From the NCBI GenBank assembly GCA_017451915.1, contig JAFTNJ010000038.1, positions 1 to 59,106 of the forward strand: DNA of 59,106 bases, written 5' to 3'. The notes beneath the pieces were generated by a model. It was not told the origin of the DNA. It was given only the letters and a program-made list of their open reading frames with translations, and ran no database searches. The stretch is from Clostridia bacterium. Lineage in GTDB: Bacteria; Bacillota; Clostridia; Oscillospirales; CAG-272. Both the position numbers and the translations under genes were made by a program. How positions within the stretch are numbered: the first letter of the stretch is position 1; every line of letters starts with the position of its first letter. Positions 6,689 to 58,613 of the stretch are shown here, piece by piece.

Positions 6689-6700
6689 CGGAGGGCGACC

Positions 6701-7516: not shown

Positions 7517-7879
7517 ATGGAACATTACGAAAACAAGCAACGCATCATTCAGGAGCTGGTCCCGGGTAAACAGATCACTCTGGCGCATATCATTGCCAAC
7601 CCCGACGAGATCCTGTACAAAAAGCTGGGCCTGGACCCTGCGGTGGAGTATTCCAAATCCGCCATTGGCATCCTGACCCTCAGCCCCGCCGAAACCGCGA
7701 TCATTGCCGGTGACATTGCCATCAAGGCCTCGGGCGCACAGCTCGGCTTTGTGGATCGCTTTAGCGGAACCGTCATTCTCACGGGCACCTACTCGGAGGT
7801 AGACGCCTCCCTTAAGGCCGTGACCGATTACGCGGAAGGCACCCTTGGATTTACCGTATGCAAGATCACGAAAACCTGA
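7517..7879 (+). CDS. pduU: PduU/EutS-like permuted BMC-H shell protein
   Basis: This 120-residue protein carries a circularly permuted BMC domain. The N-terminus (RIIQELVPGKQITLAHIIANP) followed by KKLGL and SAIGILTLSPAE is very close to PduU and EutS as I know them. Such proteins form hexamers with a small beta-barrel over the pore on one face of the shell. It is co-transcribed with the activase (21-nt gap), and its stop codon overlaps the start of the GTPase gene. Confidence 0.92.
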   Translation: MEHYENKQRIIQELVPGKQITLAHIIANPDEILYKKLGLDPAVEYSKSAIGILTLSPAETAIIAGDIAIKASGAQLGFVDRFSGTVILTGTYSEVDASLKAVTDYAEGTLGFTVCKITKT

Positions 7880-37246: not shown

Positions 37247-37338
37247 GGAGAAGTACTCAAGAGGCCGAAGAGGCGCCCCTGCTAAGGGTGTAGGCCGGCT
37301 ATACCGGCGCGAGAGTTCAAATCTCTCCTTCTCCGCCA
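37247..37338 (+). tRNA. tRNA-Ser (anticodon GCU)
   Basis: This is a 92-nt class II tRNA including an encoded CCA. The acceptor stem is GGAGAAG (37247-37253) with CTTCTCC (37328-37334) and discriminator G. The anticodon loop is CTGCTAA in the stem CCC/GGG, giving GCT for AGC/AGU serine codons. A long variable arm (GTAGGCCGGCTATACCGGC) and the T arm GAGAGTTCAAATCTCTC are clear. Its 3' end serves as an integration site: 54 nt starting at 37325 are repeated exactly at 46826. Confidence 0.96.
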
Positions 37339-37508
37339 AAGAAAAGTCCTGAAATCGCAAGATTTCAGGGCTTTTTCTTTATTTTTCTCACTTTTTGTTG
37401 TCAACCGTGTTGTCATTGACCCTTATTGTGACCCTTATAGATTGGGGTATATCGAACGAAAGAAATAGATAAAAAAGAGTTGAAACGGCTAAAAAACAGT
37501 TTTTCTAG
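37325..37508 (+). repeat. Left attachment-type repeat at tRNA-Ser (copy A)
   Basis: Positions 37325-37378 (the tRNA 3' end plus its terminator) are identical to 46826-46879. Beyond this the two copies remain alignable with some changes and small gaps for about 130 nt, through TTGTTGTCAACC.TGTTGTCATTGACCC to AAAAACAGTTTTTCTA. This is the expected left boundary of an integrated island. The remainder up to 37670 shows no gene. Confidence 0.8.
37345..37378 (+). terminator. Terminator of the tRNA-Ser gene
   Basis: Stem 37345-37356 with 37361-37372 (AGTCCTGAAATC/GATTTCAGGGCT, one G-T pair), loop GCAA, then TTTTTC. The hairpin is carried along in the duplicated copy at 46846-46873. Confidence 0.85.
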
Positions 37509-37672
37509 CCTTCCATCTTCAATTTCGAATTCGAATATATAATCTTTTCTACATAGAAAAGGGTTCTCCCATTATTTTTCACTCTCCTCATTTTTTTCTT
37601 AGTCACAAAAAATGACCATCTTTCTTGGTAGCTCCTCGAAGGAGTAAGTAAACACTTAGACATAGCCTCAGC

Positions 37673-37700
37673 AAAAAAGAGTCGGATGAACCGACTCTTT
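37673..37700 (-). terminator. Terminator of the XRE-sigma-anti-sigma operon
   Basis: A 10-bp stem (AAAGAGTCGG 37676-37685 with 37691-37700) is followed on the minus strand by a T run. It lies 9 nt after the stop at 37709. Confidence 0.85.
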
Positions 37701-37708
37701 TTACTGGG

Positions 37709-38104
37709 TCAATCTTCGGGACAACAGGAGATGTAATAATAACTTATTCTTTCTGTTGTTGTTTCACCACACCGCGAACAAGTAGTGATTTCAAAGTTTT
37801 CTAACAAGCATCGGGGCGCTTTGGTATCCACGCGATGAGTAATCGTTTGTACCGCTTCCGTTGTGTTTTTATGCCCAAACAAAGTACACATTAATCCATA
37901 AGTAGAGTGCTCCTGTTCGGGGCTAACTAACTGTGTCACTATTGTTTGTTGTTCTTCAATGGAAAAAGCAGATGATTCGTTAAAAATAATGGTTTTGTTT
38001 CCAATTTGGTAAATATTTTCTCCTGATGCATTGGCCGAAGATCCAAAAACACACATGTTGGAAAGCAAAATGATTGCAAATAAAACAGATATTACTTTTT
38101 TCAT
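37709..38104 (-). CDS. Small exported cysteine-knuckle protein
   Basis: This 131-residue protein has a signal peptide (MKKVISVLFAIILLSNMCVFGSSANA). The mature part carries LMCTLFGHKNTTEAV and PRCLLENFEITTCSRCGETTTE. The second block has the spacing C-x9-C-x2-C, the same as the modules of the 1433-residue protein at 23091. It lies 2 nt downstream of the anti-sigma gene, so the sigma/anti-sigma pair probably controls and may sense events linked to it. Function unknown. Confidence 0.75.
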   Translation of the reverse strand: MKKVISVLFAIILLSNMCVFGSSANASGENIYQIGNKTIIFNESSAFSIEEQQTIVTQLVSPEQEHSTYGLMCTLFGHKNTTEAVQTITHRVDTKAPRCLLENFEITTCSRCGETTTERISYYYISCCPED

Positions 38105-38106
38105 AA

Positions 38107-39003
38107 TTAAATTCCTTTCATATTGTTGAGTATGGAAATTAGCATTTCATAATCGTTATAAATTATATGATATTCATAATTTTCAAAATATCCAACAGCC
38201 AGATATACGTTATTCGGTTTTGCATCAATATAAAAAGTGATGTTAGACGTTTCATATATTTCAAAATGTTGGAGATCTTCTTCTAAAACACTTGAATTAC
38301 TCGAAATAGAAAAAACCAGATTAGGATCATTGGTTTGAAGGCTTAAAATCACAGAATCATTATCAAAATTTTGCTGTTTTATTTTCTCAATTACAACATT
38401 ATTAGGCAATTTAGAAGGATATAAAATATTATACTTTTCTTCTTTTATCAACTGCTCAATGGATGCATAAGAGATGCTTTGTTCCCCTTTGATCAAAGTA
38501 ATATTTCCTTCTTCCATTTTGTCACCAGGTTTAAGTTTTATAATCTTTTCAATGTTTTGAGATACAAAATCCCAAGCACTGGAATACCCTTGCGTCTTCG
38601 CCGCAACAGTAATGCCAGAAAACAGCGCGATAAATGCCGCGGCTAAAATGATTACGGTTCGAACAAATTTCTTTCTGTAACGCTTGATCGGAACATCCAT
38701 GATTTTAGAACGTTGAAGATTTTGCTTTATTTCCTTCAGTCCCTGTTGTAATTTGTCTTCGCTAACAGCGACCTCCGCCTCGGAAAGCTCATACAAATAA
38801 TCCGAACATTCCGAAATCAAATCAATATCCTGTTCATCTTCCGGTTTTTCTGTCTCATTTTTTATTATTTGGCACAGCCAAGCAATTTTCTGCTCATTAG
38901 TTGCATTATCCACATCTAAATTACACAAAAAATCGTTGTTGTTTATTTTTTCATGGGGGATCATGATGACTTCGCTCCCTTCTCTTTCTACCAAGCCACA
39001 CAT
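38107..39003 (-). CDS. Membrane anti-sigma-factor-like protein
   Basis: This 298-residue protein has a cytoplasmic N-terminal part of about 110 residues, one membrane helix (FVRTVIILAAAFIALFSGITVAA), and an outer domain of about 160 residues with repeated KLPNNVVIEKI and SLQTNDPNLVFSIS features of a DUF4367-like fold. Its position directly downstream of a sigma-70-family gene identifies it as the probable anti-sigma partner. GGAGGTGATTT gives a very strong ribosome site, partly enclosed in a small hairpin (39014-39027). Confidence 0.75.
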   Translation of the reverse strand: MCGLVEREGSEVIMIPHEKINNNDFLCNLDVDNATNEQKIAWLCQIIKNETEKPEDEQDIDLISECSDYLYELSEAEVAVSEDKLQQGLKEIKQNLQRSKIMDVPIKRYRKKFVRTVIILAAAFIALFSGITVAAKTQGYSSAWDFVSQNIEKIIKLKPGDKMEEGNITLIKGEQSISYASIEQLIKEEKYNILYPSKLPNNVVIEKIKQQNFDNDSVILSLQTNDPNLVFSISSNSSVLEEDLQHFEIYETSNITFYIDAKPNNVYLAVGYFENYEYHIIYNDYEMLISILNNMKGI

Positions 39004-39008
39004 AAATC

Positions 39009-39027
39009 ACCTCCTTCCGTAAGGAAG
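39009..39027 (-). promoter_or_regulatory. Hairpin touching the anti-sigma ribosome site
   Basis: CTTCC/GGAAG (39014-39018 with 39023-39027) with a 4-nt loop abuts and partly covers the AGGAGGTG Shine-Dalgarno of the anti-sigma gene. A similar CCTTCCTTATGTAAGGAG dyad occurs before the leader ORF at 40244. Translational tuning is possible. Confidence 0.3.
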
Positions 39028-39075
39028 TGATTCCCTATGTGCTTATTTATTTCACATTTTTAAAACGTTTACGTT

Positions 39076-39606
39076 TTATTTATTATCAAGCATTTTCTTT
39101 ACTAACGGTTGTAATTTTTTACGCAAGCGACTCCAACGTATCCTTACTGCATTTTCTGTCAAATTCATTTTTCTTGCAATCGCCTCAATTGATAATTCTT
39201 CTACTACAATGTAATGAAAAAGAATTTTTGCTTCTAATTCCAAAGATTTTTCCAAATCGCTTGCATAGTCAAGAAATTTTTGCCACTCATCAAAATAATC
39301 GTAATAGCCACCATTTTTATATTGCTGCTCGTCAACCAAGTCTTGGCACCAAGGTTCATCCAGGGGCTCATAAGAGGACGGTTGTTTTCGTCCAACTTCC
39401 TTCATCGTATTTTCTACTGCTTTTATCAACCAGCTTCTTAGGACCTTTTCATCATGCGATCGTAATGTGTCCCATTTTTTATATAACACTTCAAACGCTT
39501 TTGCAGTCGCTTCTTCCGCTAAATAACGATCTCTGCCGTTACGGTAAAAACAATAGGCTGTAACCGTTGGAAAATGCTTTAAGTATGCCTCATCAAAAGT
39601 CATCAT
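39076..39606 (-). CDS. RNA polymerase sigma-70 family (ECF-type) factor
   Basis: This 176-residue protein has region 2 at residues about 8-75 (AYCFYRNGRDRYLAEEATAKAFEVLYKKWDTL, LRSWLIKAVENT). Region 4 is near the C-terminus (EELSIEAIARKMNLTENAVRIRWSRLRKKL). The start overlaps the stop of the upstream HTH gene, so the three genes HTH, sigma and anti-sigma form one operon. It could direct the divergent ABC transporter/lipoprotein genes of the same island. Confidence 0.88.
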   Translation of the reverse strand: MMTFDEAYLKHFPTVTAYCFYRNGRDRYLAEEATAKAFEVLYKKWDTLRSHDEKVLRSWLIKAVENTMKEVGRKQPSSYEPLDEPWCQDLVDEQQYKNGGYYDYFDEWQKFLDYASDLEKSLELEAKILFHYIVVEELSIEAIARKMNLTENAVRIRWSRLRKKLQPLVKKMLDNK

Positions 39607-39980
39607 TCTCTCCTTCTCAACATTGACTCACATGTAGCCTTTAGGATTCCAATAATCATCCCCTGCTCTTCTGATGTAAGATCGGCTAGCATATCATTGA
39701 TTTCATCAATGGAAATTGTGTTGTTAAAACGGCTATACCCAAACACAAATTCATCTAACGACATATCTAGTACATCTGCGAGACGAAAGATATTTTCATG
39801 ACTTGGAAAGGTTTCCCCACGTTCGGTACAGCTGACCGACTTGGGAGTAATTCCTAAAAGATCCGCCAGATCCTGTTGTGTATATCCTTTGGATTTACGG
39901 TGCCTTTGAATATACTTCCCAAAATCTTGTTTTAATTGGTCAACGTTCATTTTTGGAATTTCAGAATTTATTTCTTTCAT
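39603..39980 (-). CDS. XRE-family regulator heading the sigma operon
   Basis: This 125-residue HTH protein contains FGKYIQRHRKSKGYTQQDLA, LLGITPKSVSCTERGETFPS and ENIFRLADVLDMSLDEFVFG, a standard XRE fold. A short C-terminal acidic region (ISIDEINDMLADLTSEEQG) follows. The last codons overlap the sigma-factor start. A good promoter lies at 40012-40040. Confidence 0.88.
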   Translation of the reverse strand: MKEINSEIPKMNVDQLKQDFGKYIQRHRKSKGYTQQDLADLLGITPKSVSCTERGETFPSHENIFRLADVLDMSLDEFVFGYSRFNNTISIDEINDMLADLTSEEQGMIIGILKATCESMLRRRE

Positions 39981-40011
39981 GTCATTTGAAAACTCATTAC
40001 GTTATGTTATA

Positions 40012-40040
40012 ATTATACACGAAATGTTCAGTTTTGTAAA
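40012..40040 (-). promoter_or_regulatory. Promoter of the XRE-sigma-anti-sigma operon
   Basis: On the minus strand TTTACA (40040-40035) and TATAAT (40017-40012) are spaced 17 nt apart. The rest of the divergent region up to 40230 is AT-rich with no visible gene. Confidence 0.7.
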
Positions 40041-40243
40041 CCCTTCAAAAGGTACTATTTATACATGATGTGTATTGTTTTTCAAATAAGCAGCATCTTT
40101 TAAGATAAACCCAATTTGTAAAAATACAAATATCTCTTTTTTGATTTTAGTTTGTACAAAATAATTCCTTGCATTTTATAGATATCAAAAATGAAATAAT
40201 CTTGGAAATATTTGTCACCTTCCTTATGTAAGGAGAGGCCATT

Positions 40244-40348
40244 GTGATTAAAAAAGCTTCAACATTAAGGTTCAAAATCATTGTTTTAAAACAAAATATG
40301 TCTATAAGTATATTGAAGGTCGGAATTCATTATGGAGGCATGGTGTGA
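40244..40348 (+). CDS. 34-aa leader ORF coupled to the ABC permease
   Basis: A GTG-started ORF (MIKKASTLRFKIIVLKQN and 16 more residues) follows AAGGAGAGG (40230-40238). It ends in a TGA that overlaps the GTG start of the permease by 4 nt (GTGA). The peptide is basic and hydrophobic. The tight overlap and good ribosome site suggest translational coupling or a regulatory leader; the peptide itself may have no function. Confidence 0.45.
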   Translation: MIKKASTLRFKIIVLKQNMSISILKVGIHYGGMV

Positions 40349-42741
40349 AATTAATAAAAGCAGAATTTGCGAAATTTTTTTCAGCAAAAATTTTAAGTTT
40401 ATTACTACTGACATTATTAGCCATAAACTTTCTAGTAACATTTTATCTTTCGCAACCGAATCCGTGGGAAGACACGGTTGAGCGCGTTTATTCCGATTAT
40501 TTGAAGGATCCTGAACCGTATGAGCATTATTTTAAGGAGCTGGAGCAAATGATGATGGAATCCATCCGTGACGAGACTCCTTCCCTTCCCCATATCTTTT
40601 CGGGAACACCTACATACGACGATTATCAAATACTGCTACATGTGCAAGAGCGGAATGCCTATTTTAAAAATTACAATCAAACGATTCAGCAAGTGATCCA
40701 CCTGACTGAAATTAAGATCCGCGACCTTCAAAGTTACGGCTATAGCGATAAGACCTATACAACGAAATCTCAAATAGAACTGAAAAAGCAATATGAAATA
40801 CTGCTGGATAATGTAAAACTTCAAAACGAGTACACATCAGGATACGATTGCTATTTGCAAAATCACATTGTAGCTGCGTTTATTTTGATCTTTTTGACAG
40901 CTACGGTTTCCTATCTTTTCTTACATGACGAGGACATAGGCTTTGGTTCAATCCTAAAAACCACCAAACACGGTCGAGGTTCCACTGCCGTGGCAAAGCT
41001 TTGCACAACGTTGATTATTACGGCCCTTATAACATTGCTGTTTCTCGGAACAACATTTCTGGCGGTTGGATTGGCAACGGGATATTCCTCCCCTTTTAAT
41101 GCTATACAGGCTTTTGAGGATTTTGCAACCGTGCCCAACGCAATGACCGTAATGGAGTACCTCGGGTTACATACCTTGCATCGGTTATGTGCATTTGCAG
41201 TATACGCCATGTTCATTGCACTCCTGGCGTCTCTCAAGCTACAGTATTTCTTTTGCTTTTGCGGCACAGCTATCTTTGCGGGGTTCAACGGATTTTTAAA
41301 TTATCGCACTTACTATGGCACGGTTCCCGCCATTCGTTATTTGAATCTTGCCTCAATGACGGAGGCGTGCTCTCTGACAAGCTTCTTCCGTACGGTGTCC
41401 TTTTTTAAAATTCCCGTACGCATCTCTGTAGTGTTGATTGTGGCGTGTTTCATTCTCTGTCTGTTGTTTGGATGTGTTGTATTTTTTGCCTTTTCGCACG
41501 ATTTTCGTTTGTTTTATCATATTGGAAAAAACTTCTCAAGGACTTTAAAAACAATCACCAATCAATTTCAGTCATTATTATTTGGGATAAAAAGACGCAT
41601 ATATCGAGCACATGCAAGTCCACTTTGGATATTCGAGCTTAAAAAAGCTCGCCCGCTTTTGATTATTTTGATCGTTGGGTGTCTGCTTTTCTTGCGTATA
41701 AGATACGTTGATCAAACCATCGGCGATATGGAAAGCTACGGGGAAGCCTTGTACTATCGGTATATCACCGAGATACAGGGAATGACCGAAGATGCTCGCG
41801 TCAACTATTTGACCGATGAACGCTACCGTATCGATCGTATAAAGATGTCCTATGATCAAAACAAAGAAAAATTTGAGAATGGTGATATGAACAGTGCCGA
41901 ATACACGGTATATCTGGAAACTTACTACACCGTATGTGCTGAAGAAATTGCTTTCAATCGTGTGGAACAGTATGCCAAGGATTTAAGTCGAAGCAGTCGT
42001 CTGGCGGGGATCACCGGCGATTGGATATACACCAGTGGCTATGAATCTTTTTTGGGCCTATCCTCAAACCTATTTTTATATGTGGCATTGATTTTTCTAT
42101 GCACCGGCAGTTTTTCGGTAGAATATATTTCAAAAAATTCTTCAAATGGCTTTGCGCAGATCTTACGAAGCACCAAAAAAGGAAGAAACAAAACCTTTAT
42201 TTCCAAGTTTGCAGTTTTCCTTAGTCTTTCCGTACTTCTTGCCATTGTCTTTCGACTTTGTGATCTTTGGATTGTAAAACAAAACTATACTATGAATGCC
42301 TCCCACGCCACCCTACTCTCGGTACAATCCTTTGCAGGAATCACTTCGGATATCTCCATCGGCAACTATATTATTTTTGATCTGCTCTTAAATGCATTTT
42401 CCGCGGCAATGCTGGCATTAATTATCTGCCTGTTATCTTGTTTTTTTAAAAAAACGTTTGCGATCCTTACCACATCCATGTTGTTAACCGGGCTTCCGGA
42501 ACTATTAGCAAAAACCAAATTGAATAACTTCTCCAATTGCAGTATCTTATCATTTACGGCTCCGCAAGCCATTGTTTACAGATCTTTTGAAAAGCATTGG
42601 CTGGGGTGCAATTGGCTGTATTTGATCATGCTGTGTGCAGCATACCTTCTCCTCGCTATTTTGCTTTTTTATCTTGCCTGGAGAAGATTTGAGGGAAAAA
42701 CACGTTCCTTTATAAGAAAGGAAAAACATGATGAAGCTTGA
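40345..42741 (+). CDS. ABC-2-type permease, duplicated two-half architecture
   Basis: This 798-residue membrane protein consists of two similar halves (about 1-410 and 425-798). Each has an N-terminal helix, a large extracytoplasmic loop, and a block of about five helices. Related cytoplasmic motifs GFGSILKTTKHGRGSTAVAKL and FAQILRSTKKGRNKTFISKF precede the helix blocks, which shows the duplication. The GTG start follows GGAGG. The ATPase gene overlaps the 3' end by 14 nt. Exporters of this kind handle peptides, lipids or antibiotics; the cargo is unknown. Confidence 0.82.
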   Translation: MKLIKAEFAKFFSAKILSLLLLTLLAINFLVTFYLSQPNPWEDTVERVYSDYLKDPEPYEHYFKELEQMMMESIRDETPSLPHIFSGTPTYDDYQILLHVQERNAYFKNYNQTIQQVIHLTEIKIRDLQSYGYSDKTYTTKSQIELKKQYEILLDNVKLQNEYTSGYDCYLQNHIVAAFILIFLTATVSYLFLHDEDIGFGSILKTTKHGRGSTAVAKLCTTLIITALITLLFLGTTFLAVGLATGYSSPFNAIQAFEDFATVPNAMTVMEYLGLHTLHRLCAFAVYAMFIALLASLKLQYFFCFCGTAIFAGFNGFLNYRTYYGTVPAIRYLNLASMTEACSLTSFFRTVSFFKIPVRISVVLIVACFILCLLFGCVVFFAFSHDFRLFYHIGKNFSRTLKTITNQFQSLLFGIKRRIYRAHASPLWIFELKKARPLLIILIVGCLLFLRIRYVDQTIGDMESYGEALYYRYITEIQGMTEDARVNYLTDERYRIDRIKMSYDQNKEKFENGDMNSAEYTVYLETYYTVCAEEIAFNRVEQYAKDLSRSSRLAGITGDWIYTSGYESFLGLSSNLFLYVALIFLCTGSFSVEYISKNSSNGFAQILRSTKKGRNKTFISKFAVFLSLSVLLAIVFRLCDLWIVKQNYTMNASHATLLSVQSFAGITSDISIGNYIIFDLLLNAFSAAMLALIICLLSCFFKKTFAILTTSMLLTGLPELLAKTKLNNFSNCSILSFTAPQAIVYRSFEKHWLGCNWLYLIMLCAAYLLLAILLFYLAWRRFEGKTRSFIRKEKHDEA

Positions 42742-43639
42742 ATTTCAAAACATTAGCAAATCCTATGGTAATACCAAAGCGTTACAAAAAATCACCGCAG
42801 TATTAGAGCCTGGAATTTATGCACTGTTGGGGCCCAATGGCTCTGGAAAATCCACATTGATGAATATTCTTACCGATAATCTTAAAGCAGATACCGGGTG
42901 CATCATCTATACGGACGATGCCGGAACGTCCGAAAATATTCTCCACATGGGAGTTCGTTTTCGGGAAAAACTCGGATTTATGCCACAATATCCGGGGATG
43001 TATCCCAACTTCACCGTTGACCGTTTTTTGTGGTACATTGCGGCACTCAAGGACATTGGCATCGGTCTGCGCGGTAAAGAAAAGCCTCGCTATATTGCAG
43101 AACAAATACACACCGTTCTCGCCGAGGTTGAGTTGGATGATGTATCCCATCATCGGATCAGTACATTATCCGGCGGCATGAAACAACGCTTGGCATTAGC
43201 ACAAGCGGTATTGGGAAATCCTGAAATTCTGATTTTAGATGAGCCCACCGCCGGACTTGACCCCAAACAACGCATTTCCGTTCGTAATTATATCTCCCGG
43301 ATCGCCCTGAACAAAATTGTCATTATTGCCACGCACGTCGTTTCGGATGTAGAATTTATTGCCCGAGAAGCCATTCTATTAAAAAAAGGGGTGATTGCGG
43401 ACATGGCACCACCACAGGAATTGATTGCAAAAATGAATGGAAAGGTATGGGAAATTCGATGTCAAGAATCGGAGGTGTCCAAGTGGCAACAGCAACATCC
43501 TGTAACCAAGCTTACCAAATGTGAGCATGACGATGGTGTGATCTTACGTGTTTTGGCAGATCACAAACCACACGAAAAGGCTTCCCCGTTGTTGCCATCC
43601 TTAGAGGATTGCTATCTGCATGTCTTTGGACAGCAGTAG
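42728..43639 (+). CDS. ABC transporter ATP-binding protein
   Basis: This 303-residue ATPase has Walker A LLGPNGSGKSTLMN, the signature LSGGMKQRLALAQA, Walker B ILILDEPTAGLD and the switch His in IATHVV. About 80 C-terminal residues (VWEIRCQESEVSKW...) form the accessory domain seen in ABC-2 exporters. It overlaps and pairs with the upstream permease. It ends with TAG. Confidence 0.94.
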   Translation: MMKLEFQNISKSYGNTKALQKITAVLEPGIYALLGPNGSGKSTLMNILTDNLKADTGCIIYTDDAGTSENILHMGVRFREKLGFMPQYPGMYPNFTVDRFLWYIAALKDIGIGLRGKEKPRYIAEQIHTVLAEVELDDVSHHRISTLSGGMKQRLALAQAVLGNPEILILDEPTAGLDPKQRISVRNYISRIALNKIVIIATHVVSDVEFIAREAILLKKGVIADMAPPQELIAKMNGKVWEIRCQESEVSKWQQQHPVTKLTKCEHDDGVILRVLADHKPHEKASPLLPSLEDCYLHVFGQQ

Positions 43640-43734
43640 AAAAAAGGCAATCTTTTTAACATTAAAAAAGTGAAAGAAATGAATCGAACCTTGTCACTTA
43701 CCTCTTGAAAGAGGGAAAATGGAGAACGATAGAT

Positions 43735-44802
43735 ATGAAAAAAAGCATAAATGTTTTAAAATTCATTATGGTGATTTTCCTCTTGTTATCGCAGTCACTT
43801 TCACTGGGATCTTGTTACTATAAAACGCCAATGGTTACATTTGATTATGACTATATGGGAAAACAAGCTGTTCAAGCACCTATCAACGGATTTTTGACAG
43901 AGCCTGCATTGCCCGAGCGAACCGGTTATGTTTTTGACGGTTGGTATTATGAAGAAAAGCGATGGATTTTTTCAGAGGATACAACAAACGATAATATTGT
44001 ACTAATCGCAAAATGGATTCCGCAAAGCTATACACTCACATTGGACACCAACGGCGGGATATGCGACGCAGAGTCTATAACCGTCTATTTTGAACAACCG
44101 TACCGATTACCCGAAGTAACCAAAGAAGGATATTATTTTGCGGGATGGTATATCGGGAACTCGCATCATTTGGTAAAAGATGAAATATGGACTTACACAA
44201 CCGATAAAACGTACCAAGCAAAATGGAGTGTTTTACCCGAAGGTACAACGGTCACGTTTGGAGTATATGAGCAGGATAACAACATTGCAAACGGCGCTGA
44301 GCCGATCGATTGGTTGGTACTGGACGAAAAAGACGGAAAATATCTTTTGATCAGTCAATTTGTTTTAGACGGTCAGCATTATAACGAACTTGAATCAAAA
44401 TACAATCTTTGGAAAGATTCTTATATACGAACATGGTTAAATACATACTTTTTGGAAGCTGCTTTTACTTTGGAAGAACAGAAGGCCATTTCAGAAACCT
44501 ATCTTTCAGATGTTGATACAACGGATAGAATTTTCTTTCTAAATCATGCGGAAACGCAAGCCCTACTGCTAAACGACACGTGGTGTTTGGGAAAATGCAC
44601 ACCTTATGCTCTGTCCTTAGGCCTAAAATTAAATGTTAGTAATGAACGATATAAGTCTTGGCATTTAAGAGACGGAGACAATCATGGGCGTTTTTCCACA
44701 GCAGCAGCATCCGGTGTGTTTTGTGGCACCGATGTTGGACGTGGGTTACAGGGCTGTCGGCCGGCACTTTGGGTAAATAAGGATGCTGTACAATTAAACT
44801 AA
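43735..44802 (+). CDS. Lipoprotein with two InlB B-repeats and a DUF6273-like domain
   Basis: The 355-residue protein begins with a lipoprotein signal ending LSLGSCYYK. Two Listeria/Bacteroides-type InlB B-repeats follow (GYVFDGWYYEEKRW and LDTNGGICDAE...GYYFAGWYIG, about residues 30-165). Then comes a DUF6273-like C-terminal domain (PIDWLVLDEKDGKYLLIS, SYIRTWLN, GRPALWV-like CRPALWVNKD). It is a surface protein transcribed after the ABC genes. Start at 43735 is chosen because it begins the signal sequence. Confidence 0.82.
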   Translation: MKKSINVLKFIMVIFLLLSQSLSLGSCYYKTPMVTFDYDYMGKQAVQAPINGFLTEPALPERTGYVFDGWYYEEKRWIFSEDTTNDNIVLIAKWIPQSYTLTLDTNGGICDAESITVYFEQPYRLPEVTKEGYYFAGWYIGNSHHLVKDEIWTYTTDKTYQAKWSVLPEGTTVTFGVYEQDNNIANGAEPIDWLVLDEKDGKYLLISQFVLDGQHYNELESKYNLWKDSYIRTWLNTYFLEAAFTLEEQKAISETYLSDVDTTDRIFFLNHAETQALLLNDTWCLGKCTPYALSLGLKLNVSNERYKSWHLRDGDNHGRFSTAAASGVFCGTDVGRGLQGCRPALWVNKDAVQLN

Positions 44803-44975
44803 ATGTATTGTTTATGTATCGTTTCTGATCAAAACGATTTACATAAAAGGAGAGGGTAAATTTTTATTTTTGTTTTTGCGCGCAAAACATTTGTAAAAAT
44901 GATTATTTGATTGGTTTCGTCACCAATCATGCCCGAAATTTGACGGAAACAATTTTTAAAAAGAAAGGATTTCTT

Positions 44976-45464
44976 ATGAAAAAGAGAAAATTATTAAAAG
45001 GTTTATCGTTGGTGCTTGGTTTGGTTTGCTTGATAAACACGTTGACCATTCTATCTTTTGCTGCAGTTAAAAATTATTTTGATAAAGATTGGCAGTACAC
45101 GTCTGATACCCGCACCGCCGGTTACAGTATGATCGACTGCTATGCGTACGACTATGGTGTTGATGATCCGGACAACTATGCTATCATTATCGGTGAATCA
45201 AAAGGCGGAGCGGTCTCTGCTTTTGAAACTACTGTATTGGCTCAATATCTTGATGGCGTAAGACATATTCAAACAGCCTCTTCGGATGATACCGGAACTG
45301 CTCGTGTTTCTGCACAAGTATCCTTTTATGAGGGGGATCTTATAGGAGGCGCAACCGGATACACCGAACATTGGAGCACCAGTAAAACAGATGATAGTGA
45401 TTATTGGTGTTATAACTATGTGGTTCGTTTTGTGAACTGTGAAGTGGGATTTGTTGAGACATAA
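44976..45464 (+). CDS. Exported protein of unknown function
   Basis: This 162-residue protein has a signal peptide (KRKLLKGLSLVLGLVCLINT ending LSFA). The mature part is about 130 residues, polar, tyrosine- and glycine-rich (DKDWQYTSDTRTAGYSMIDC, SAQVSFYEGDLIGGATGYTE), suggesting a beta-sandwich. AAAGGA precedes ATG 44976. It is one of three exported products in the ABC-transporter cassette and might be its cargo, but nothing in the sequence proves this. Confidence 0.75.
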   Translation: MKKRKLLKGLSLVLGLVCLINTLTILSFAAVKNYFDKDWQYTSDTRTAGYSMIDCYAYDYGVDDPDNYAIIIGESKGGAVSAFETTVLAQYLDGVRHIQTASSDDTGTARVSAQVSFYEGDLIGGATGYTEHWSTSKTDDSDYWCYNYVVRFVNCEVGFVET

Positions 45465-45542
45465 CAATATTTGACGCCGCAATTCATAATTTAATGTTAC
45501 ATATCATATCCCTGTAGAAGCATAATAAACCGAACCCCCCCT

Positions 45543-45575
45543 CCCCGAAGCTACTGAAATTCAGTAGTTTCGGGG
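45543..45575 (+). terminator. Hairpin between the exported-protein genes
   Basis: CCCCGAA and CTACTGAA pair with TTCAGTAG and TTTCGGGG to form a long stem across 45544-45575. No T run follows, so it may be a processing or partial terminator rather than a complete stop. AAGGAGG for the next gene lies just downstream. Confidence 0.55.
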
Positions 45576-45600
45576 GGACACTAAGGAGGCGAGTAAAACG

Positions 45601-46797
45601 ATGAATAAACGATTCATGCGGGTACCAATTTTTATATTAACAGTTACCATATTGATATGCGTATTATCCTCATGCTCCGAGCAACCCGACGAACCATATC
45701 ATGAAATGCTAAACACAGTACCTGTTTCTCAGAAAGATAACGTTATCGAATATGGAAATTATGTTTTTTATGAAAGCGGAAAAGGCATAATGAAATATGA
45801 CCGTTCCACAGGAGAGATAAGAAGTGCCTGTGTTGATCCGGAATGCAAAGGCAATTGTTTACTGGAATCACCACTGAATTATTTTTCACAAATTGTAGAT
45901 GGAAAGCTATACTTTGCTACGATGACAGCATATACACATGAGTATACCTATGCTTATTTGGATATTCAAACCGGAATAGTCACCGTATTACGTATATGCG
46001 AAGAGATTGAAAGCGTTATGGGAATACCCCCATTGGTAGAAAATGGCTATTGCTATTATAGTTGTAAAAAATTAAAGGAAAATGGCAATAAACAGGACCC
46101 GCAGGACTATTTGCCCTATATTTGCCGTATTTCGGCAGATGGCTCTGGTTCGGAAGAGGTCTTATGTGAACTTTTAGGCGAATCAGACATCCTTTTGTTT
46201 GTGTACAATGGCAATGCAATTACACATTATGATGCAAAACTCCATTTAGTAAATCTTTCCACAGGTGAACGTCAAATTATATTCGATCAATATAAGGAAG
46301 GATATACATTTGTAAATGGAGATCTCGCTTTCTTAAATGGAAAAATATATTTGCTACTAAAAACAAATGCCTCTGTTACTTCGGAATATACAAAAAAAAG
46401 TTATAAATACAGTTATTTGGTATGTGTCGATCCGGAGACACGTACCCACAAGCGTGTATTGGAAACTCCAGTTGTCAGTTTTCATATTACTAACAACAAA
46501 ATATATTATGCCCCCTTTGAATTAAGGCATTTAAATATTCCTGAAGATTACGAAAATAATCTTTCTCAAATAACAATCATGTTGGCTTCTCCTGACTTGC
46601 ATTGTTGTGATTTAGACGGAAAAAATGATCAAATTCTTTATTCAAATCCAACGCTTAATTACATGGAATCCTTTACCGTAGTTCAAGATAAACTCTATGG
46701 TTGGCTGATTAATCACGACGAACAAACAAATACAGAAAATAAGAAAATGTACTTTGGAGAAATCGATTTTAAAACAAAAGAAATTGTCATAAAATAA
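45601..46797 (+). CDS. Lipoprotein, probable beta-propeller
   Basis: This 398-residue protein has a lipoprotein signal with lipobox LSSC at about residue 25. The rest repeats a pattern of short strands (IEYGNYVFYESGKGIMKYD, IVDGKLYFATM, FLNGKIYLLLK, ITNNKIYYAP), as in DUF5050-like propellers. It is the last gene of island 1. Its stop codon lies in the right-end sequence that recurs at 58586. Confidence 0.78.
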   Translation: MNKRFMRVPIFILTVTILICVLSSCSEQPDEPYHEMLNTVPVSQKDNVIEYGNYVFYESGKGIMKYDRSTGEIRSACVDPECKGNCLLESPLNYFSQIVDGKLYFATMTAYTHEYTYAYLDIQTGIVTVLRICEEIESVMGIPPLVENGYCYYSCKKLKENGNKQDPQDYLPYICRISADGSGSEEVLCELLGESDILLFVYNGNAITHYDAKLHLVNLSTGERQIIFDQYKEGYTFVNGDLAFLNGKIYLLLKTNASVTSEYTKKSYKYSYLVCVDPETRTHKRVLETPVVSFHITNNKIYYAPFELRHLNIPEDYENNLSQITIMLASPDLHCCDLDGKNDQILYSNPTLNYMESFTVVQDKLYGWLINHDEQTNTENKKMYFGEIDFKTKEIVIK

Positions 46798-46998
46798 TAA
46801 AAGATTGTGCACATGAGATGCAACGCTCCTTCTCCGCCAAAGAAAAGTCCTGAAATCGCAAGATTTCAGGGCTTTTTCTCTTTTTTCTCACTTTTTGTTG
46901 TCAACCATGTTGTCATTGACCCTTATAGATTGCCTCGTATCAAACAAAAGAAACAGATAAAACAGAGCTGAAACGCCTAAAAAACAGTTTTTCTATCC
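46787..46998 (+). repeat. Internal attachment-type repeat (copy B)
   Basis: 46826-46879 repeats the tRNA-Ser 3' end and terminator exactly (54 nt), and similarity to copy A continues to about 46998. The sequence just left of the core (TTGTGCACATGAGATGCAACGC, from 46805) matches 58586-58613 at 26 of 28 positions, with further similarity leftward to about 46790. It therefore looks like the junction of two islands: the right end of island 1 and the left end of island 2. Confidence 0.78.
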
Positions 46999-47082
46999 TC
47001 TGTGCTTATATATATTTATTCGCCCAAAACAGAAGAAAGAAATTTTATGGTTCCAAAGCATCGATACGCAAATCGAACAGTA

Positions 47083-47125
47083 AAAAAAGAGAAAGCTCAT
47101 TGCAATAATGAACTTTCTCTTTTTT
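47083..47125. terminator. AT-rich bidirectional hairpin
   Basis: AAAAAAGAGAAAG (47083-47095) pairs with CTTTCTCTTTTTT (47113-47125). It has A- and T-runs on both sides and could terminate in either direction. The surrounding 46999-47295 holds no gene. Confidence 0.6.
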
Positions 47126-47211
47126 CGCCTAAGCGGGTTATAAACAACTTTGAAAGATATAATTTAACTATATGTTATGGTTCCAAAAACGAAGGTTTTT
47201 GAAACTTTTTG

Positions 47212-47256
47212 CAACCGTCCCAAAACCGTCTGAAAAGATGGGTTTTGGGACGGTTG
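47212..47256. repeat. 16-bp perfect inverted repeat downstream of the recombinase gene
   Basis: CAACCGTCCCAAAACC (47212-47227) pairs perfectly with 47241-47256 across a 13-nt loop, 40 nt past the recombinase stop. It lacks a T run on the minus strand. Related CGTCCCAAAACC and TTTTGAGAC words occur at 58510-58560 near the other end of the island, so it may be a terminal or recombination element rather than a simple terminator. Confidence 0.45.
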
Positions 47257-47295
47257 TTTGTGTCAAAACGCGTTTCAAAATCAAGGTTTCAAAAC

Positions 47296-47841
47296 TCAAC
47301 CCTTTATGGCACGGTATAGCGTATTTTTGGAAATACCCGTTAAGTCTGTTACTTCCGTGACGCTATATTGATTCGTTTTGTAAAGTGCCACTGCCTTTTG
47401 AACAGCTTTGGCATCGGTCTTTGGTCTGCCGCCGCATCGTCCTCTGGCTCTGGCGGCGTTGAGTCCTTCACGTGTCCGTTCAACCAATACGTCGCGTTCA
47501 AACTGCGCGAGGGATGAGAGAATCGTGAACAAAAGGCGTCCGGTTGATGACGTGGTGTCTATTGTTTCCTTTAAGGACACCAACCGAACACCCTTCTCGT
47601 TCAGAAGCTCCATGAGCTCGGCGAGGTTTTTCACACTCCTGCCAAGCCGACTGAGGCTTTCGATTACAATCGTATCCCCACTTTGAATCGTCCCGAGCAT
47701 TTGGTCAAGCTCGGGGCGATTCTTTTTTGTTCCCGACATCTTCTCGCAATAGAGCTTGTCAATGCCGTACTTATAAAGCGCATCCTTCTGCCGATCCAAG
47801 TTCTGATCGGCGGTAGACACGCGCGCATAGCCGTAGATCAT
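47296..47841 (-). CDS. Serine recombinase (resolvase/invertase family)
   Basis: This 181-residue small serine recombinase has the catalytic serine at S9 (IYGYARVSTADQNLDRQ). It also shows GDTIVIESLSRLGRS, FTILSSLAQFERDVLVERTREGL (E helix) and a C-terminal HTH (SVTEVTDLTGISKNTLYRAIKG). Size and domains fit resolution or inversion rather than tRNA-site integration. Start at 47841 follows GGTAGGAG. It sits at the left end of island 2 and is probably a resident mobile-element gene. Confidence 0.92.
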   Translation of the reverse strand: MIYGYARVSTADQNLDRQKDALYKYGIDKLYCEKMSGTKKNRPELDQMLGTIQSGDTIVIESLSRLGRSVKNLAELMELLNEKGVRLVSLKETIDTTSSTGRLLFTILSSLAQFERDVLVERTREGLNAARARGRCGGRPKTDAKAVQKAVALYKTNQYSVTEVTDLTGISKNTLYRAIKG

Positions 47842-47845
47842 ACTC

Positions 47846-47926
47846 CTACCTCCGATCCTTGTGCTTGTTATACATTTCGGCGATGATCTCAATCAAAGCC
47901 CAGATCAAAATTCTTGCGTATTTCAT
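47846..47926 (-). CDS. 26-aa ORF upstream of the recombinase
   Basis: This short ORF (MKYARILIWALIEIIAEMY and seven charged residues) ends 4 nt before the recombinase start and contains its ribosome binding site. AAAGGA lies about 12 nt upstream of the ATG, a long spacing. It could be a leader peptide or a small membrane peptide. The evidence is its hydrophobic N-terminal half and position only. Confidence 0.35.
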   Translation of the reverse strand: MKYARILIWALIEIIAEMYNKHKDRR

Positions 47927-47984
47927 GTAAAAGATCGTTCCTTTCATTTTCAATATTTTGGCATAGAGTTGCCAATATTTTTTC

Positions 47985-48932
47985 TTATCCGTATTCATAG
48001 TCGTATATATACTCCTCGATCATTTCAAGATCCCAACCTTCCTCAAGCAGCGCATCCACCACGTCCACCGAAATGCCTTGGTATGCTGCTATCGATTTAA
48101 GTGCGTTGATGTAATCCTCCCTTGTGTCACCCGTGGATTGACCGAAGAATGCTCGGTAGGCAGAGAAACCATCATATTCCCACCAACCTCGGCTTTTGTA
48201 ATAGCTGTAATGAAAATGGTACCGCTCGATTTTGCCATCAGAACGAATCTTTAATATCTCGCCCTCCTCGACGGGGATTTCCTCATAGTCCCCGATCTTT
48301 AACGCCTCAAACAACTTGGTATCGACCAACGCCTTGTAGAGGATCTGCTCAGTGCTGGCGTAGATGTAGATCTTCTGCTTTGGGAAGTGCAGGATCGAGA
48401 GCGGTGAATCCCCCTTGACGAGATAGACGTTGTTCCGATCATCCAAGATGGAAAACGAAAAGCTGCCCTTGACCTGTTCCGCCATGTACTTGATACTGTC
48501 GATATTAAAGACTCTTCGGCTTTCTATCAACTGCACCGCAATGAAGGAATCGGTTTCAATCTTGGTTTTGGAAAGGTTCAAAGACTTCCGCAGTTCTTCA
48601 TCGTTCATCAGGACACCGTTATGGGCAAGGGCAAATCTTGTTCCTTTCGCCTTTCCATAGAAGGGATGGTTGTTGAAGTTCTTTTTCTCATCCCCCTGTG
48701 TTGAGTGTCTTGTATGACTAATCAATGCAGGGATATCATCGGAATGCTTGAAATCCAAGGAATACGCTGACTTCGCCTCCTTGTGAATGTTGATTCCTCC
48801 CGGTCTGCAAAAGGCGATTCCCGTGGCATCAATGCCTCTTACGGCGGATTGCTCGGCAAGGGCGTTGGTCAGATCCGAAAGCCCTTTTATAGGCTGATCG
48901 GCATAGGCAGAAAATCCAAATAATCCACACAT
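47985..48932 (-). CDS. Class II glutamine amidotransferase (Ntn hydrolase)
   Basis: This 315-residue protein begins MCGLFGFSAYA, so removal of Met exposes the catalytic Cys of class II amidotransferases (PurF/GlmS type). ISHTRHSTQGDEKKNFNNHPF and FALAHNGVLMND are the glutamine-site blocks. No synthetase or isomerase domain follows, so the ammonia acceptor must be another protein. The start lies 1 nt after the amidoligase stop, which makes that enzyme the obvious partner. The C-terminal 70 residues (YYKSRGWWEYDGFSAY...) are tyrosine-rich and specific to this protein. Confidence 0.88.
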   Translation of the reverse strand: MCGLFGFSAYADQPIKGLSDLTNALAEQSAVRGIDATGIAFCRPGGINIHKEAKSAYSLDFKHSDDIPALISHTRHSTQGDEKKNFNNHPFYGKAKGTRFALAHNGVLMNDEELRKSLNLSKTKIETDSFIAVQLIESRRVFNIDSIKYMAEQVKGSFSFSILDDRNNVYLVKGDSPLSILHFPKQKIYIYASTEQILYKALVDTKLFEALKIGDYEEIPVEEGEILKIRSDGKIERYHFHYSYYKSRGWWEYDGFSAYRAFFGQSTGDTREDYINALKSIAAYQGISVDVVDALLEEGWDLEMIEEYIYDYEYG

Positions 48933-48933
48933 C

Positions 48934-50085
48934 TTACATGCCCTCGCTTTCATCTGCAATTTCATTTACAGGCTCATTGACATAGAGTTGCTTCAGTTTG
49001 AGATAGGCGATCAATTCATCTCTGCTTTCCTTGTCAATACGAAGAACAAAGTCACTCCAAGAAAGGTTTTCCATTTCCTTGTCGGTCAAGGCAATGGCGG
49101 CATTACAGATTTCAGAGACCAACTGCAAGGTGGCGATAAATGTTTCGTAGCGGAGAGTTCCTCTGAACAGACGGAACTCAATCGTCTCATAGTTCTCCAG
49201 ATTGACCGCGACGTATCGTCCCATACGCTTGTCCTTTGCCTTCTTGAAGGTCTCCTTTGTAGTGGGAGAGATGGTGGCATAGCGCGCAGCCCATCTTTCC
49301 AGAGCGTCGGCATGACGGCGAGAGAAGCGGACAAGCTCGTTCCAGTGCTTCTCTACGAAATAGACGACGCGACCGATTGCGGCATCCTGTACGTAGGAAT
49401 CCGCTCCAAAGGCATAGCGGCTGCAATGCACGTGAAAGCCACAGGTCGAGGTATTATGAGAAGCATATTTCATCTCCAACGCCTTCTCAAAGACCTCTTT
49501 CCAATTCATCTTGGACATGTGGTATTCCAAGGTCATGGGATGGCTGACGATCTCAAAGCAATCACAGATGCTACCGTCATGCTTGCAGTAGATGTGCTCC
49601 CTAGAGAAGTTTGCGACGTCGAGAAGATTCTCGGCGTTCTCATCCAGCTCGCCACCCTTGTCGATTTCCAACTCTACGCCCATATAGAGATCGCTTTCCG
49701 AGCCGTAGAAGATCGGCTCTGGCTTGTATCCGTAGGCGTGGATCGGACGCTCCCGAAGCTTTTGATAGCAGCTTGCGCAATAGGGATAGTCCGAGTCATC
49801 GTCATAGTAGGCATCGTTGGTGGGGATCAGACATCCGCAGTCCTCGCAGGTGGTGTAGCGATCCTCGTAGCAACGAGTACAAAGAATCAGCGAATCGTTG
49901 CCCTCTGCATCGTCCCGACGGATACGTGTGGAACAGCAATCGCAAAGGACGGTCAGATCGTCCAGACAATCCTCGCAATAGAGGTGCCCCTCAAATTCGT
50001 GGGCATCATCAGTGGTCAATTTCGCGCCGCATTCCGAGCAGACGTGGATGGCTTCTTGATTTTGTTCGTAGGTGTTTTCGTTCAT
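48934..50085 (-). CDS. Amidoligase (Amidoligase_2-like) with N-terminal zinc-ribbon array
   Basis: This 383-residue protein has an N-terminal part (about 1-115) with three CxxC-type zinc-ribbon/LIM-like knuckles (CSECGAK...CEDC, CDCCSTR...CTRC, CEDCGC...CASC). The rest matches the glutamine-synthetase-fold amidoligase family. Conserved blocks are YMGVELEID (acidic ATP/Mg site), CKHDGSI, EIVSHPM, CGFHVHCS and IEFRLFRGTL. Family members are predicted to form amide bonds, often with ammonia from an adjacent class II amidotransferase, exactly the arrangement here. The acceptor (a peptide, protein or metabolite) is unknown. CAGGAGGATAATACC precedes the ATG. Confidence 0.85.
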   Translation of the reverse strand: MNENTYEQNQEAIHVCSECGAKLTTDDAHEFEGHLYCEDCLDDLTVLCDCCSTRIRRDDAEGNDSLILCTRCYEDRYTTCEDCGCLIPTNDAYYDDDSDYPYCASCYQKLRERPIHAYGYKPEPIFYGSESDLYMGVELEIDKGGELDENAENLLDVANFSREHIYCKHDGSICDCFEIVSHPMTLEYHMSKMNWKEVFEKALEMKYASHNTSTCGFHVHCSRYAFGADSYVQDAAIGRVVYFVEKHWNELVRFSRRHADALERWAARYATISPTTKETFKKAKDKRMGRYVAVNLENYETIEFRLFRGTLRYETFIATLQLVSEICNAAIALTDKEMENLSWSDFVLRIDKESRDELIAYLKLKQLYVNEPVNEIADESEGM

Positions 50086-50235
50086 GGTATTATCCTCCTG
50101 AAAGTTTATTTTTGTTTCCTACTGCGAGAATAATATATAAACAAAAAAATAAGGCTTGCGATGGCAAAACAAACCGAAAAGGGCTGTTTCAAACCATTGC
50201 AAACCGAAAATAACGATAGAAAGGATTTGATTTTT

Positions 50236-50409
50236 ATGTACGAAAATATCCCCGAAGTAATGACATTAAAAGAGTGCCAAGAACTCTTGAAGGTTGGAAA
50301 GAATACCATGCTGGAGTTATTACATACAAGGCAGATCGAAGGATTCAAGATCGGGAGTAGGTGGAAAGTAAAAAAAGAGAGCTTGGTGGAGTTTTTGAGA
50401 TATCAATAG
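50236..50409 (+). CDS. Excisionase-family MerR-like HTH protein
   Basis: This 57-residue protein (VMTLKECQELLKVGKNTMLEL, then GFKIGSRWKVKKESLVEFL) is the small winged-helix excisionase/DNA-binding type common on integrative elements. ATG 50236 follows GAAAGGA. It is divergent from the amidoligase gene. No integrase lies nearby, so it may control the divergent promoter or be left over from a degraded module. Confidence 0.88.
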   Translation: MYENIPEVMTLKECQELLKVGKNTMLELLHTRQIEGFKIGSRWKVKKESLVEFLRYQ

Positions 50410-50410
50410 A

Positions 50411-50452
50411 AAATCGAGTAGAGGTCTATTTAAAGCTCTCTACTCGATTTTT
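50411..50452 (+). terminator. Terminator of the excisionase-like gene
   Basis: A 13-bp perfect stem (AAATCGAGTAGAG 50411-50423 with 50438-50450) is followed by TTTTTG, counting the last bases of the stem. Confidence 0.82.
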
Positions 50453-50545
50453 GATATAAAATATATATTATTCCAATCCAAAGATTAAAGAAGTCCAAAA
50501 AACATCAAAAAGAAAAACTTGGAAAGTCGTTTAAAAGCGTTGCTT

Positions 50546-51910
50546 TCAATGAACCTCAAAATCGGGAATCAGCTTGCGCCTTACGTAATTGCAAAGACAC
50601 TTGCATTCCTTGGTCACCGCTTCTGCAAGGAGTGGATCTTGGGAAAAATTCTCGGGGTCATCATTGGGAAAATCCCCACGAACGCCGAGCACCTCGGCAT
50701 CCTTTATGTATGCTTTTGCAAGCTCGACGGCGCGGCGGGTGTGAAAATAGGAGGTGACGATGGCAAGACGCGGGTATTCCTTTGCGCAACCTTCGGCAAC
50801 GATTTGACGACTGCAGGTCATATTTTCACGAGTTGTAGTGGCATTGGTTTCGGTTATGATCAATTCCTTCGGAACGCCCATATCCGTCATATAATGCTTC
50901 AATGCCTCTGCCTCCGTAACAAAACCGTATTGGGTATCACGGAAAACGCCGCCTGTGGTGATAAACATACGGCACTGTCCGCCAAGATAAAGTCGGGCAG
51001 CCGCCTCGGCACGCGACTTCATAAAGAGATCGGGACAGCCGAGAACAAGCGCGGCGTCAAAGCATCCCTCGGGGGCTTTGTAGTTCCCGTATGCCACACG
51101 CCCCTTGACACGTTCCGGAAAGAGCTCTGCTTCAGCACCGGTGAAATCCGACATCCGCGCGCCTTCTTTGACCACGGTCACGGGACCTGTCGGTGCCTCC
51201 TTCGGCGTGTCAAATATGTCCACTCGCTCCATATAGCGAAATCCATCGGGACCTCCATCCCTTAAGCAAAGAACAAAGGGAAAGGAATTGACTTTGGTAC
51301 AAAGCTCAAAATAACTCGTCGGAAAAACATCCTTTTGCGCTTCATCAAAGAAACGGGCTCCGCTTGTTTTCTTAAGCTCCTCTATTTTTTTATTAATATT
51401 GGGAATAGACTTGTTTTCAATCAGGCTCTTGATATATTCAGCGGCAAGGATATCCTCGTCCGCAGGAGTTTCGCCTGCCTCTCCCATACAAACCAGAGAA
51501 ACCTCCTCGGGATTTTTTCTCCTGACATACTCCGCAATCGCCTTAGCGCATACCAGGTTTCCGCCAACGATCTCGTCTGCTTCGGTTGCAACTTTCACCC
51601 CTTGCGTTCCCGCACTGGTAGCATGTATAACGGTTTTGCCCAAAAAATCTCCCTTTTCGATCTCGGTTGGAGAATTCCCGTAGTCGAAGCCTTCTATCTT
51701 GATTCCGCCCCGTTCACCGCAAAGGATCGCGTCCGGATGGTTCTTTTTAAAATTCATGGCAGTGTTGATATCGCCTACGGGGATGACCGTTTTCGCGCCC
51801 GCCCTCATCAAATATGCCTCTACAGAAAAGTCATAAAAAACATCGATGATGACGGTAAGACCGCGTGCTTGCGCTGCACCTTTCGTAAAATGCAATACGT
51901 TGATCTTCAT
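50546..51910 (-). CDS. ComB-like phosphatase fused to a DUF218/YdcF domain
   Basis: This is a 454-residue two-domain protein. Residues 1 to about 240 look like 2-phosphosulfolactate phosphatase (ComB): VIIDVFYDFSVEAYLM, CGERGGIKIEGFDYGNSP, TSAGTQGV. Residues about 285-454 are a DUF218/YdcF/ElyC-like domain: ALVLGCPDLFMKSRAEAAARL, FITTGG, TEAEALKHYMTDMGVP, NATTTRENM, IVTSYFHTRRAVEL. I know no such fusion. ComB enzymes classically belong to coenzyme M synthesis in methanogens but occur widely in bacteria. Substrate unknown. GGAGGAAGAT precedes the start at 51910. Confidence 0.82.
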   Translation of the reverse strand: MKINVLHFTKGAAQARGLTVIIDVFYDFSVEAYLMRAGAKTVIPVGDINTAMNFKKNHPDAILCGERGGIKIEGFDYGNSPTEIEKGDFLGKTVIHATSAGTQGVKVATEADEIVGGNLVCAKAIAEYVRRKNPEEVSLVCMGEAGETPADEDILAAEYIKSLIENKSIPNINKKIEELKKTSGARFFDEAQKDVFPTSYFELCTKVNSFPFVLCLRDGGPDGFRYMERVDIFDTPKEAPTGPVTVVKEGARMSDFTGAEAELFPERVKGRVAYGNYKAPEGCFDAALVLGCPDLFMKSRAEAAARLYLGGQCRMFITTGGVFRDTQYGFVTEAEALKHYMTDMGVPKELIITETNATTTRENMTCSRQIVAEGCAKEYPRLAIVTSYFHTRRAVELAKAYIKDAEVLGVRGDFPNDDPENFSQDPLLAEAVTKECKCLCNYVRRKLIPDFEVH

Positions 51911-58469: not shown

Positions 58470-58585
58470 CGTTTTTACGCCTTTTTTCGTTTCAAAAACG
58501 TCTATACGGAGGTTTTGAGACGTCCCAAAACCTATCAAACACCGTTTTTGAGACAAATCAAAGCTCCAAGAGATAATAAAAGCTG

Positions 58586-58613
58586 TTGTGTACATGAGAT
58601 GCAATGCTCCTTC
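58586..58613 (+). repeat. Third attachment-type remnant (copy C)
   Basis: TTGTGTACATGAGATGCAAT followed by GCTCCTTC matches 46805-46832 at 26 of 28 positions, and ATAATAAAAG precedes both. Similarity stops after GCTCCTTC, so only the island-internal right end and the first bases of the att core are kept. It probably marks the right border of island 2. Confidence 0.6.

Follow-up and report, generated by a model that had tools for sequence, protein, structure and literature searches.

Four consecutive reading frames occupy the minus strand at 47296-50085 of the window, the name used here for the whole 59,106-nt stretch of DNA that was analyzed. They encode an amidoligase, a glutaminase, a micropeptide and a small serine recombinase. 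The glutaminase ATG lies 1 nt past the amidoligase TAA, and the recombinase ATG lies 4 nt past the micro-ORF stop. The features of the locus are as follows.

48934..50085, minus strand: zinc-ribbon head (three four-cysteine sites, residues about 15-106) plus Amidoligase_2 domain, 383 aa (motifs, Pfam, alignment)
47985..48932, minus strand: class II (N-terminal cysteine) glutaminase/amidotransferase, 315 aa (Pfam, alignment)
47846..47926, minus strand: unannotated micro-ORF MKYARILIWALIEIIAEMYNKHKDRR, 26 aa (codon-level comparison, profiles)
47296..47841, minus strand: small serine recombinase of the resolvase/invertase type, 181 aa from its likely start (Pfam)
50236..50409, plus strand: HTH_17/excisionase-like protein, 57 aa, divergent from the amidoligase (Pfam)
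50131..50138, minus strand: TATATTAT box, promoter-like, upstream of the amidoligase (pattern recurrence)
47181..47204, minus strand: 24-bp near-palindrome TTTCAAAAACCTTCGTTTTTGGAA directly after the recombinase, a candidate recombination site

Amidoligase-to-glutaminase spacing was -1 to +3 nt in all 21 loci compared. A gene resembling that of the HTH_17 protein lies close upstream in seven relatives, and the TATATTAT pattern is present in 18 of 27 loci, a raw count made without a chance control. Rfam searches of 46500-50700 gave matches below the gathering score only, and a regulatory RNA at the operon was rejected on that basis. The enzyme pair as such is already known, because passages of phage papers name such pairs (PMC10580990, PMC3890496, PMC5513430). 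What is novel here is the micro-ORF and the recurring recombinase as operon parts; the titles, abstract openings and passages surveyed in the open-licence literature mention neither a micropeptide nor a recurrent recombinase with an amidoligase-glutaminase pair.

The amidoligase and its zinc head

The initial annotation had described an intact amidoligase core behind a three-knuckle zinc-ribbon head, and both descriptions stand. The motifs that it quoted (GVELEID, HDGS, CGFHVHCS and IEFRLFRGTL) are all present in the 383-aa ORF, which scored 38.9 bits against Pfam Amidoligase_2 (PF12224; gathering cut-off 22). The same family was matched by 22 of 22 close relatives, which are 45-67% identical to the window protein, and by 26 of the 27 sequences of a wider set (E up to 0.01). 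Active-site residues are kept in all aligned relatives, with no loss of catalytic residues at the ATP site. Sixteen core positions are invariant in all 27 sequences of the wider set, and the window protein has every one; E138, E140, D170, S172, E178, G216, H218, H220, E303 and R305 are invariant in 27/27, down to 26% identity. The core residues are likewise invariant in the close set of 22.

The head contains twelve cysteines (16, 19, 37, 40, 48, 51, 69, 72, 80, 83, 103 and 106) that form three four-cysteine sites and are invariant in 22/22 close relatives; a LIM-type zinc match in Pfam covers the first knuckle, residues 15-41. Unlike the core positions, the zinc cysteines vary in the wider set of 27, down to 26% identity, and a rough tally of the cysteine pairs that precede the core ranged from 0 to 14 among relatives. 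Recruitment of a protein target by the head, as raised in the initial annotation, is a putative role. PHROG 16683, a viral family without assigned function, spans both head and enzyme (E 7.9e-91). A PDB sequence search gave no match for the enzyme part of the protein and weak matches to zinc domains only (best E 0.0026; 0.005 using a profile).

The glutaminase and its coupling to the amidoligase

The downstream frame proved to be, as first proposed, a class II amidotransferase starting 1 nt after the amidoligase, and its catalytic residues are intact. Its GATase_6 score in Pfam was 41.4 against a cut-off of 27, and its PDB matches were to the glutaminase domains of PurF and GlmS. All 20 aligned sequences have C2, R75, H104-N105-G106 and D128, whose individual roles are assigned by analogy with GlmS and PurF.

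We collected 86 close loci, of which 78 were non-redundant after removal of 8 near-duplicates at 97%. A glutaminase is adjacent in 77 of these 78, always with the amidoligase gene first; in the one exception, L013, the sequence ends 138 bp past the amidoligase. Viral contigs hold at least 482 confirmed amidoligase relatives. Among the best 80 of these, 65 have a glutaminase, of two types, and in 63 it is adjacent, downstream and on the same strand. Since the glutaminase is adjacent in so many close loci and in most of these best 80 viral loci, the pairing is not due to chance, and most homologues of the amidoligase do have an amidotransferase beside them. Tabulation of conserved neighbours, a check that the initial annotation had proposed, showed that glutaminases, recombinases, micro-ORFs and mobile-element genes recur near the amidoligase.

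The pairs of PF12224 protein and class II amidotransferase in the phages phiEco32, Marvin, LUZ24-like and OM43 consist of the same adjacent enzyme families and likewise lie on mobile DNA. In contrast to the phage pairs, the gene group here includes a conserved micro-ORF and a small serine recombinase. The glutaminases also differ: the one here is of the MCxLFG type, whereas 51 glutaminases among the best 80 of at least 482 viral relatives are of the MCII type, and a micro-ORF accompanies only one of those 51, without the acidic motif described below. Judging from the intact residues and from what is known of the families, the window pair very likely couples glutaminase activity to ATP-dependent amide bond formation.

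A micropeptide gene in the operon

Counterparts of the micro-ORF MKYARILIWALIEIIAEMYNKHKDRR, which the initial annotation had missed, lie immediately after the glutaminase in L001, L003, L005, L024 and L066. Over 355 aligned codons from the window and these five relatives, differences at codon positions 1, 2 and 3 numbered 140, 93 and 245, and 80 of 140 identical residues are encoded by different codons. This third-position bias, together with the differing codons for identical residues, is the pattern of a translated, selected peptide; as judged from codon usage, the micropeptide is under selection. The peptide in the window has an acidic pair, Glu13 and Glu17, whose two members would share one face of a predicted helix.

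The micro-ORFs fall into several families, among them MO0 (the window type), MO1 and MO2, which gave no mutual alignment; in hindgut relatives, MO1 and MO2 follow either the recombinase or DUF3846. When profiles of the three were run against the 53,386 small ORFs of the loci, all matches at E of 3.4e-5 or below fell in amidoligase-glutaminase loci, some of them second copies of the same DNA, and the next-best match had an E of 0.023; these values were computed with Z=1000 and would rise roughly fiftyfold if scaled to all 53,386 ORFs.

A profile-free scan used crude filters: a hydrophobic micro-ORF, preceded by ribosome-site-like sequence, starting at most 140 nt past the glutaminase. Such a micro-ORF followed the glutaminase in 19 of 72 loci, one of them (L280) doubtful, compared with 16 of 382 control ORFs, which were other ORFs of at least 200 aa within the same loci (Fisher p 3.8e-8, ignoring kinship). 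These counts overstate independence, because some positives are paralogues within a single genome (four in G330, two in G465). The pattern [ED]-h-h-x?-[ED] (acidic-hydrophobic-acidic) occurs in 17 of 21 post-glutaminase micro-ORFs versus 2 of 18 control micro-ORFs, having been first seen in the same data and counted afterwards. Both motif-positive controls are themselves in amidoligase operons, one after the recombinase (L256) and one upstream of the amidoligase (L010). MO1, MO2 and most upstream micro-ORFs are without the motif.

In seven loci a micro-ORF lies immediately upstream of the amidoligase instead. Counting both positions, a micro-ORF was recognized in 39 of the 72 close loci and in none of the remaining 33, some of which have intact enzymes. 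The distant viral loci with the other glutaminase type nearly lack micro-ORFs, and the enzyme pair can therefore function without one.

The micropeptide might be a small membrane toxin or holin-like peptide, akin to type I toxins, within an addiction or exclusion module in which the enzymes serve as antidote or act elsewhere. Its size, hydrophobic helix and charged ends suit such a role, and the micropeptides presumably resemble bacterial type I toxin peptides. None of ten micropeptides, however, matched Pfam or NCBIfam at E up to 10, a search in which models this short match poorly, and Rfam placed nothing at gathering level in 46500-50700; we consider this explanation quite improbable. That the micropeptide works with the enzyme pair, the relationship on which our preferred reading depends, seems to us about an even bet.

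A recurring serine recombinase and its candidate sites

The window recombinase has a clear resolvase N-terminal domain (PF00239, 156.8 bits against a cut-off of 23.3) and a C-terminal HTH_7 domain scoring slightly under the curated cut-off (21.6 against 23.8 bits). The initial annotation read it as the sign of an island. The recombinase is real, but it goes beyond an island sign in being a recurring, non-orthologous member of the operon. At least 1.5 kb of sequence past the glutaminase was available in 65 of the 78 loci, and in 43 of these testable loci a small serine recombinase lies on the same strand within 5 kb of the glutaminase (38 within 1.3 kb). Peptide patterns of the query had guided the choice of loci L001-L025. 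The samples from the order and the class were picked independently of those patterns and, taken alone, gave 30 of 49 within 5 kb and 27 of 49 within 1.3 kb. No recombinase was present in the other 22 of the 65 testable close loci, and none was found in the distant viral loci among the best 80 of at least 482.

Assigned to four reference types, the first recombinases of the loci comprised 30 of type C, 7 of type A, 5 of type B and 1 of type D. Recombinase type switches at least five times on an amidoligase tree of 35 rows, 23 of them typed, from which L014 and three distant outgroups were excluded. Tree neighbours L001 and L024, for example, differ in type, the L001 recombinase being 3.7 kb away. 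Placement is nevertheless regular: the first 1.3 kb past the glutaminase (89 kb in all) contained 43 recombinase ORFs on the same strand and 0 on the opposite one. By comparison, the 216 kb upstream of the amidoligase contained 2, and the 224 kb at 1.3-5 kb downstream contained 6. Regular placement despite exchange of type therefore argues for some use of the recombinase, although the gene itself is not universal.

These observations bear on whether the locus is ordinary cargo, that is, a generic phage metabolic pair beside which the carrier elements happen to have their own recombinase and micro-ORFs. In six genomes of the family, homologues of the recombinase stand alone, with no amidoligase, the type switches and absences just described fit loose association, and mobile-element genes (DUF3846, DUF960, relaxase, integrase) lie near the pair. 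Set against this, the strand and position of the recombinase, 43 to 0, are too regular for cargo, and the micro-ORFs are specific to amidoligase-glutaminase loci in the profile search. We regard the cargo explanation as somewhat unlikely and continue to favor an operon in which enzymes and micropeptide belong together.

In several relatives, the DNA between glutaminase and recombinase is rich in dyads. A 103-bp segment between these two genes, at 10078-10195 of L012, is inverted relative to 2178-2299 of L011, with 101 of 103 bases identical (98%), while the genes flanking it in these two rabbit-gut genomes keep their orientation at about 82% identity. The corresponding segment of L064 is likewise reversed relative to those of L030 and L017 (local alignment scores 79 vs 27 and 52 vs 25). 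A promoter within the 103-bp segment was considered and rejected: L012 has one weak consensus match overlapping the edge, and L011 has none. Because of this, the segment does not amount to a clear phase switch.

The window operon itself contains no invertible segment, and the near-palindrome TTTCAAAAACCTTCGTTTTTGGAA is its only candidate site. At up to 3 mismatches the near-palindrome is unique in the window genome, and a further genome of the genus has it next to a remnant of the recombinase end (136 nt, 90%). Between recombinase and near-palindrome, a perfect 16-bp inverted repeat with a 13-nt loop (47212-47256) may be a terminator or part of a site.

Mobility and distribution

The 3' end of a tRNA-Ser(gct) gene starts a long direct repeat (37247-37511 and 46826-46999) that bounds a low-G+C stretch of ~9.5 kb. 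The operon had been placed on an island. Because this repeat-flanked island (37325 to 46999) ends before the recombinase, the operon adjoins it rather than lying inside; the G+C content of the operon DNA, too, falls below that of the window's left half. Among the listed ORFs from 38 kb onward, no tyrosine integrase was conspicuous. The right-end sequence of the low-G+C stretch recurs at 58573-58613 as a 41-bp copy (88%), which is perhaps a further, older boundary.

Neighbours of the relatives include a relaxase domain, a Tn916-type integrase, a D5-like primase, DUF3846, DUF960 and DUF6809. Two loci, L008 and L014, share a 3597-nt block (91%) whose direct flanks are unmatched, and another 454-nt match lies about 3 kb beyond it. 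Relative to L013, L020 has 5.9 kb of extra genes (about 1997-7917), without recognizable terminal repeats, interposed between the HTH gene and the amidoligase; the junction lies immediately ahead of the TATATTAT box. Among 35 genomes of the genus we found no empty site for the window operon; its right flank was found only in the window genome and its left flank as short pieces only. A simple transposon with two defined ends was rejected, given the 454-nt match beyond the L008/L014 block, the lack of an empty site for the window and the lack of terminal repeats around the extra stretch of L020. The operon is probably on mobile DNA, and we infer that the window copy has moved.

The amidoligase is single copy in the window genome. 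At E 1e-10, 4 of 196 family genomes have a relative; at E 1e-30, so do 29 of 394 genomes from the order and 19 of 391 from the class, two samples that overlap partly. The initial annotation had also suggested a transferable modification or conflict function. The sporadic distribution and the mobile-element neighbours are in keeping with transfer, but PADLOC matches neither the amidoligase nor the glutaminase, and a known anti-phage defence system was rejected for that reason.

Proposed function

We propose that the locus is a transferable operon consisting of a glutamine-fed, amide-forming enzyme pair and a dedicated micropeptide partner, a reading to which we assign a probability of roughly 0.5. 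The glutaminase, with Cys2 as nucleophile, would release ammonia from glutamine; the amidoligase, predicted to be glutamine-synthetase-like, would activate a carboxylate with ATP and couple the ammonia to it. The micropeptide would be a dedicated partner, serving either as acceptor, with amidation of its conserved acidic pair, or as a partner of the enzymes in the membrane. Moving, resolving or inverting the element would be the task of the recombinase and nearby sites, which would take no part in the chemistry. That the micropeptide is the acceptor or substrate of the pair is the more doubtful part of the proposal, and we think it rather unlikely. Similarly tentative is a fuller version in which the pair amidates or cross-links Glu13 and Glu17 of the helix, altering its seating in the membrane, and the recombinase makes the module mobile or phase-variable.

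The main rival is that the pair amidates peptidoglycan or another wall precursor, blocking competing phages. Passages of two papers report the suggestion, for which Iyer et al. 2009 is cited, that the phiEco32 amidoligase/GATase pair modifies the cell wall against superinfection (PMC11318856, PMC10580990), and the amidoligase pair is widespread in phages. The chemistry has a general precedent in MurT-GatD, where, in the passages we drew on, a glutaminase likewise supplies ammonia to an ATP-dependent ligase for the amidation of lipid II, although GatD is of another amidotransferase class and MurT is a Mur ligase (PMC5871853); we found no sequence kinship of the window pair to MurT-GatD, which has another fold. 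Against envelope amidation, no wall gene was recognized among the annotated conserved neighbours, and the zinc head and micropeptide are left unexplained by it. We think this explanation unlikely, though a serious rival nonetheless. For a DNA modification reading, no supporting neighbour was seen.

An enzyme pair acting with its own micropeptide has a partial parallel in graspetide and other modified-peptide systems, in which, as a general idea, a ligase gene likewise lies beside that of a tiny peptide with acidic residues. Graspetide systems use a ligase of the ATP-grasp fold and are not known to include a glutaminase.

To our knowledge, the substrates of phage-type amidoligases have remained unknown ever since the family was described. 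A peptide gene within the operon, carrying an acidic motif that suits amide chemistry, offers a concrete substrate candidate. If the fuller version is true, mobile elements would carry a new type of ribosomal peptide modification, and if the substrate reading in general is right, it would provide a function for a whole class of orphan phage enzymes. Should that reading prove wrong, mobile elements of gut Clostridia would still have in the micropeptide a conserved component that had escaped annotation. The recurring, non-orthologous recombinase and the invertible segment provide a second handle.

Several further observations concern individual loci. In the window, 50546-51910 encodes a 2-phosphosulfolactate phosphatase domain fused to DUF218, which at the DNA level was not found in 34 other genomes of the genus. 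Two relatives appear to be decaying copies: in L022 (1365-2755) the amidoligase and glutaminase are both broken, and in L016 (4010-4550) the recombinase is frameshifted.
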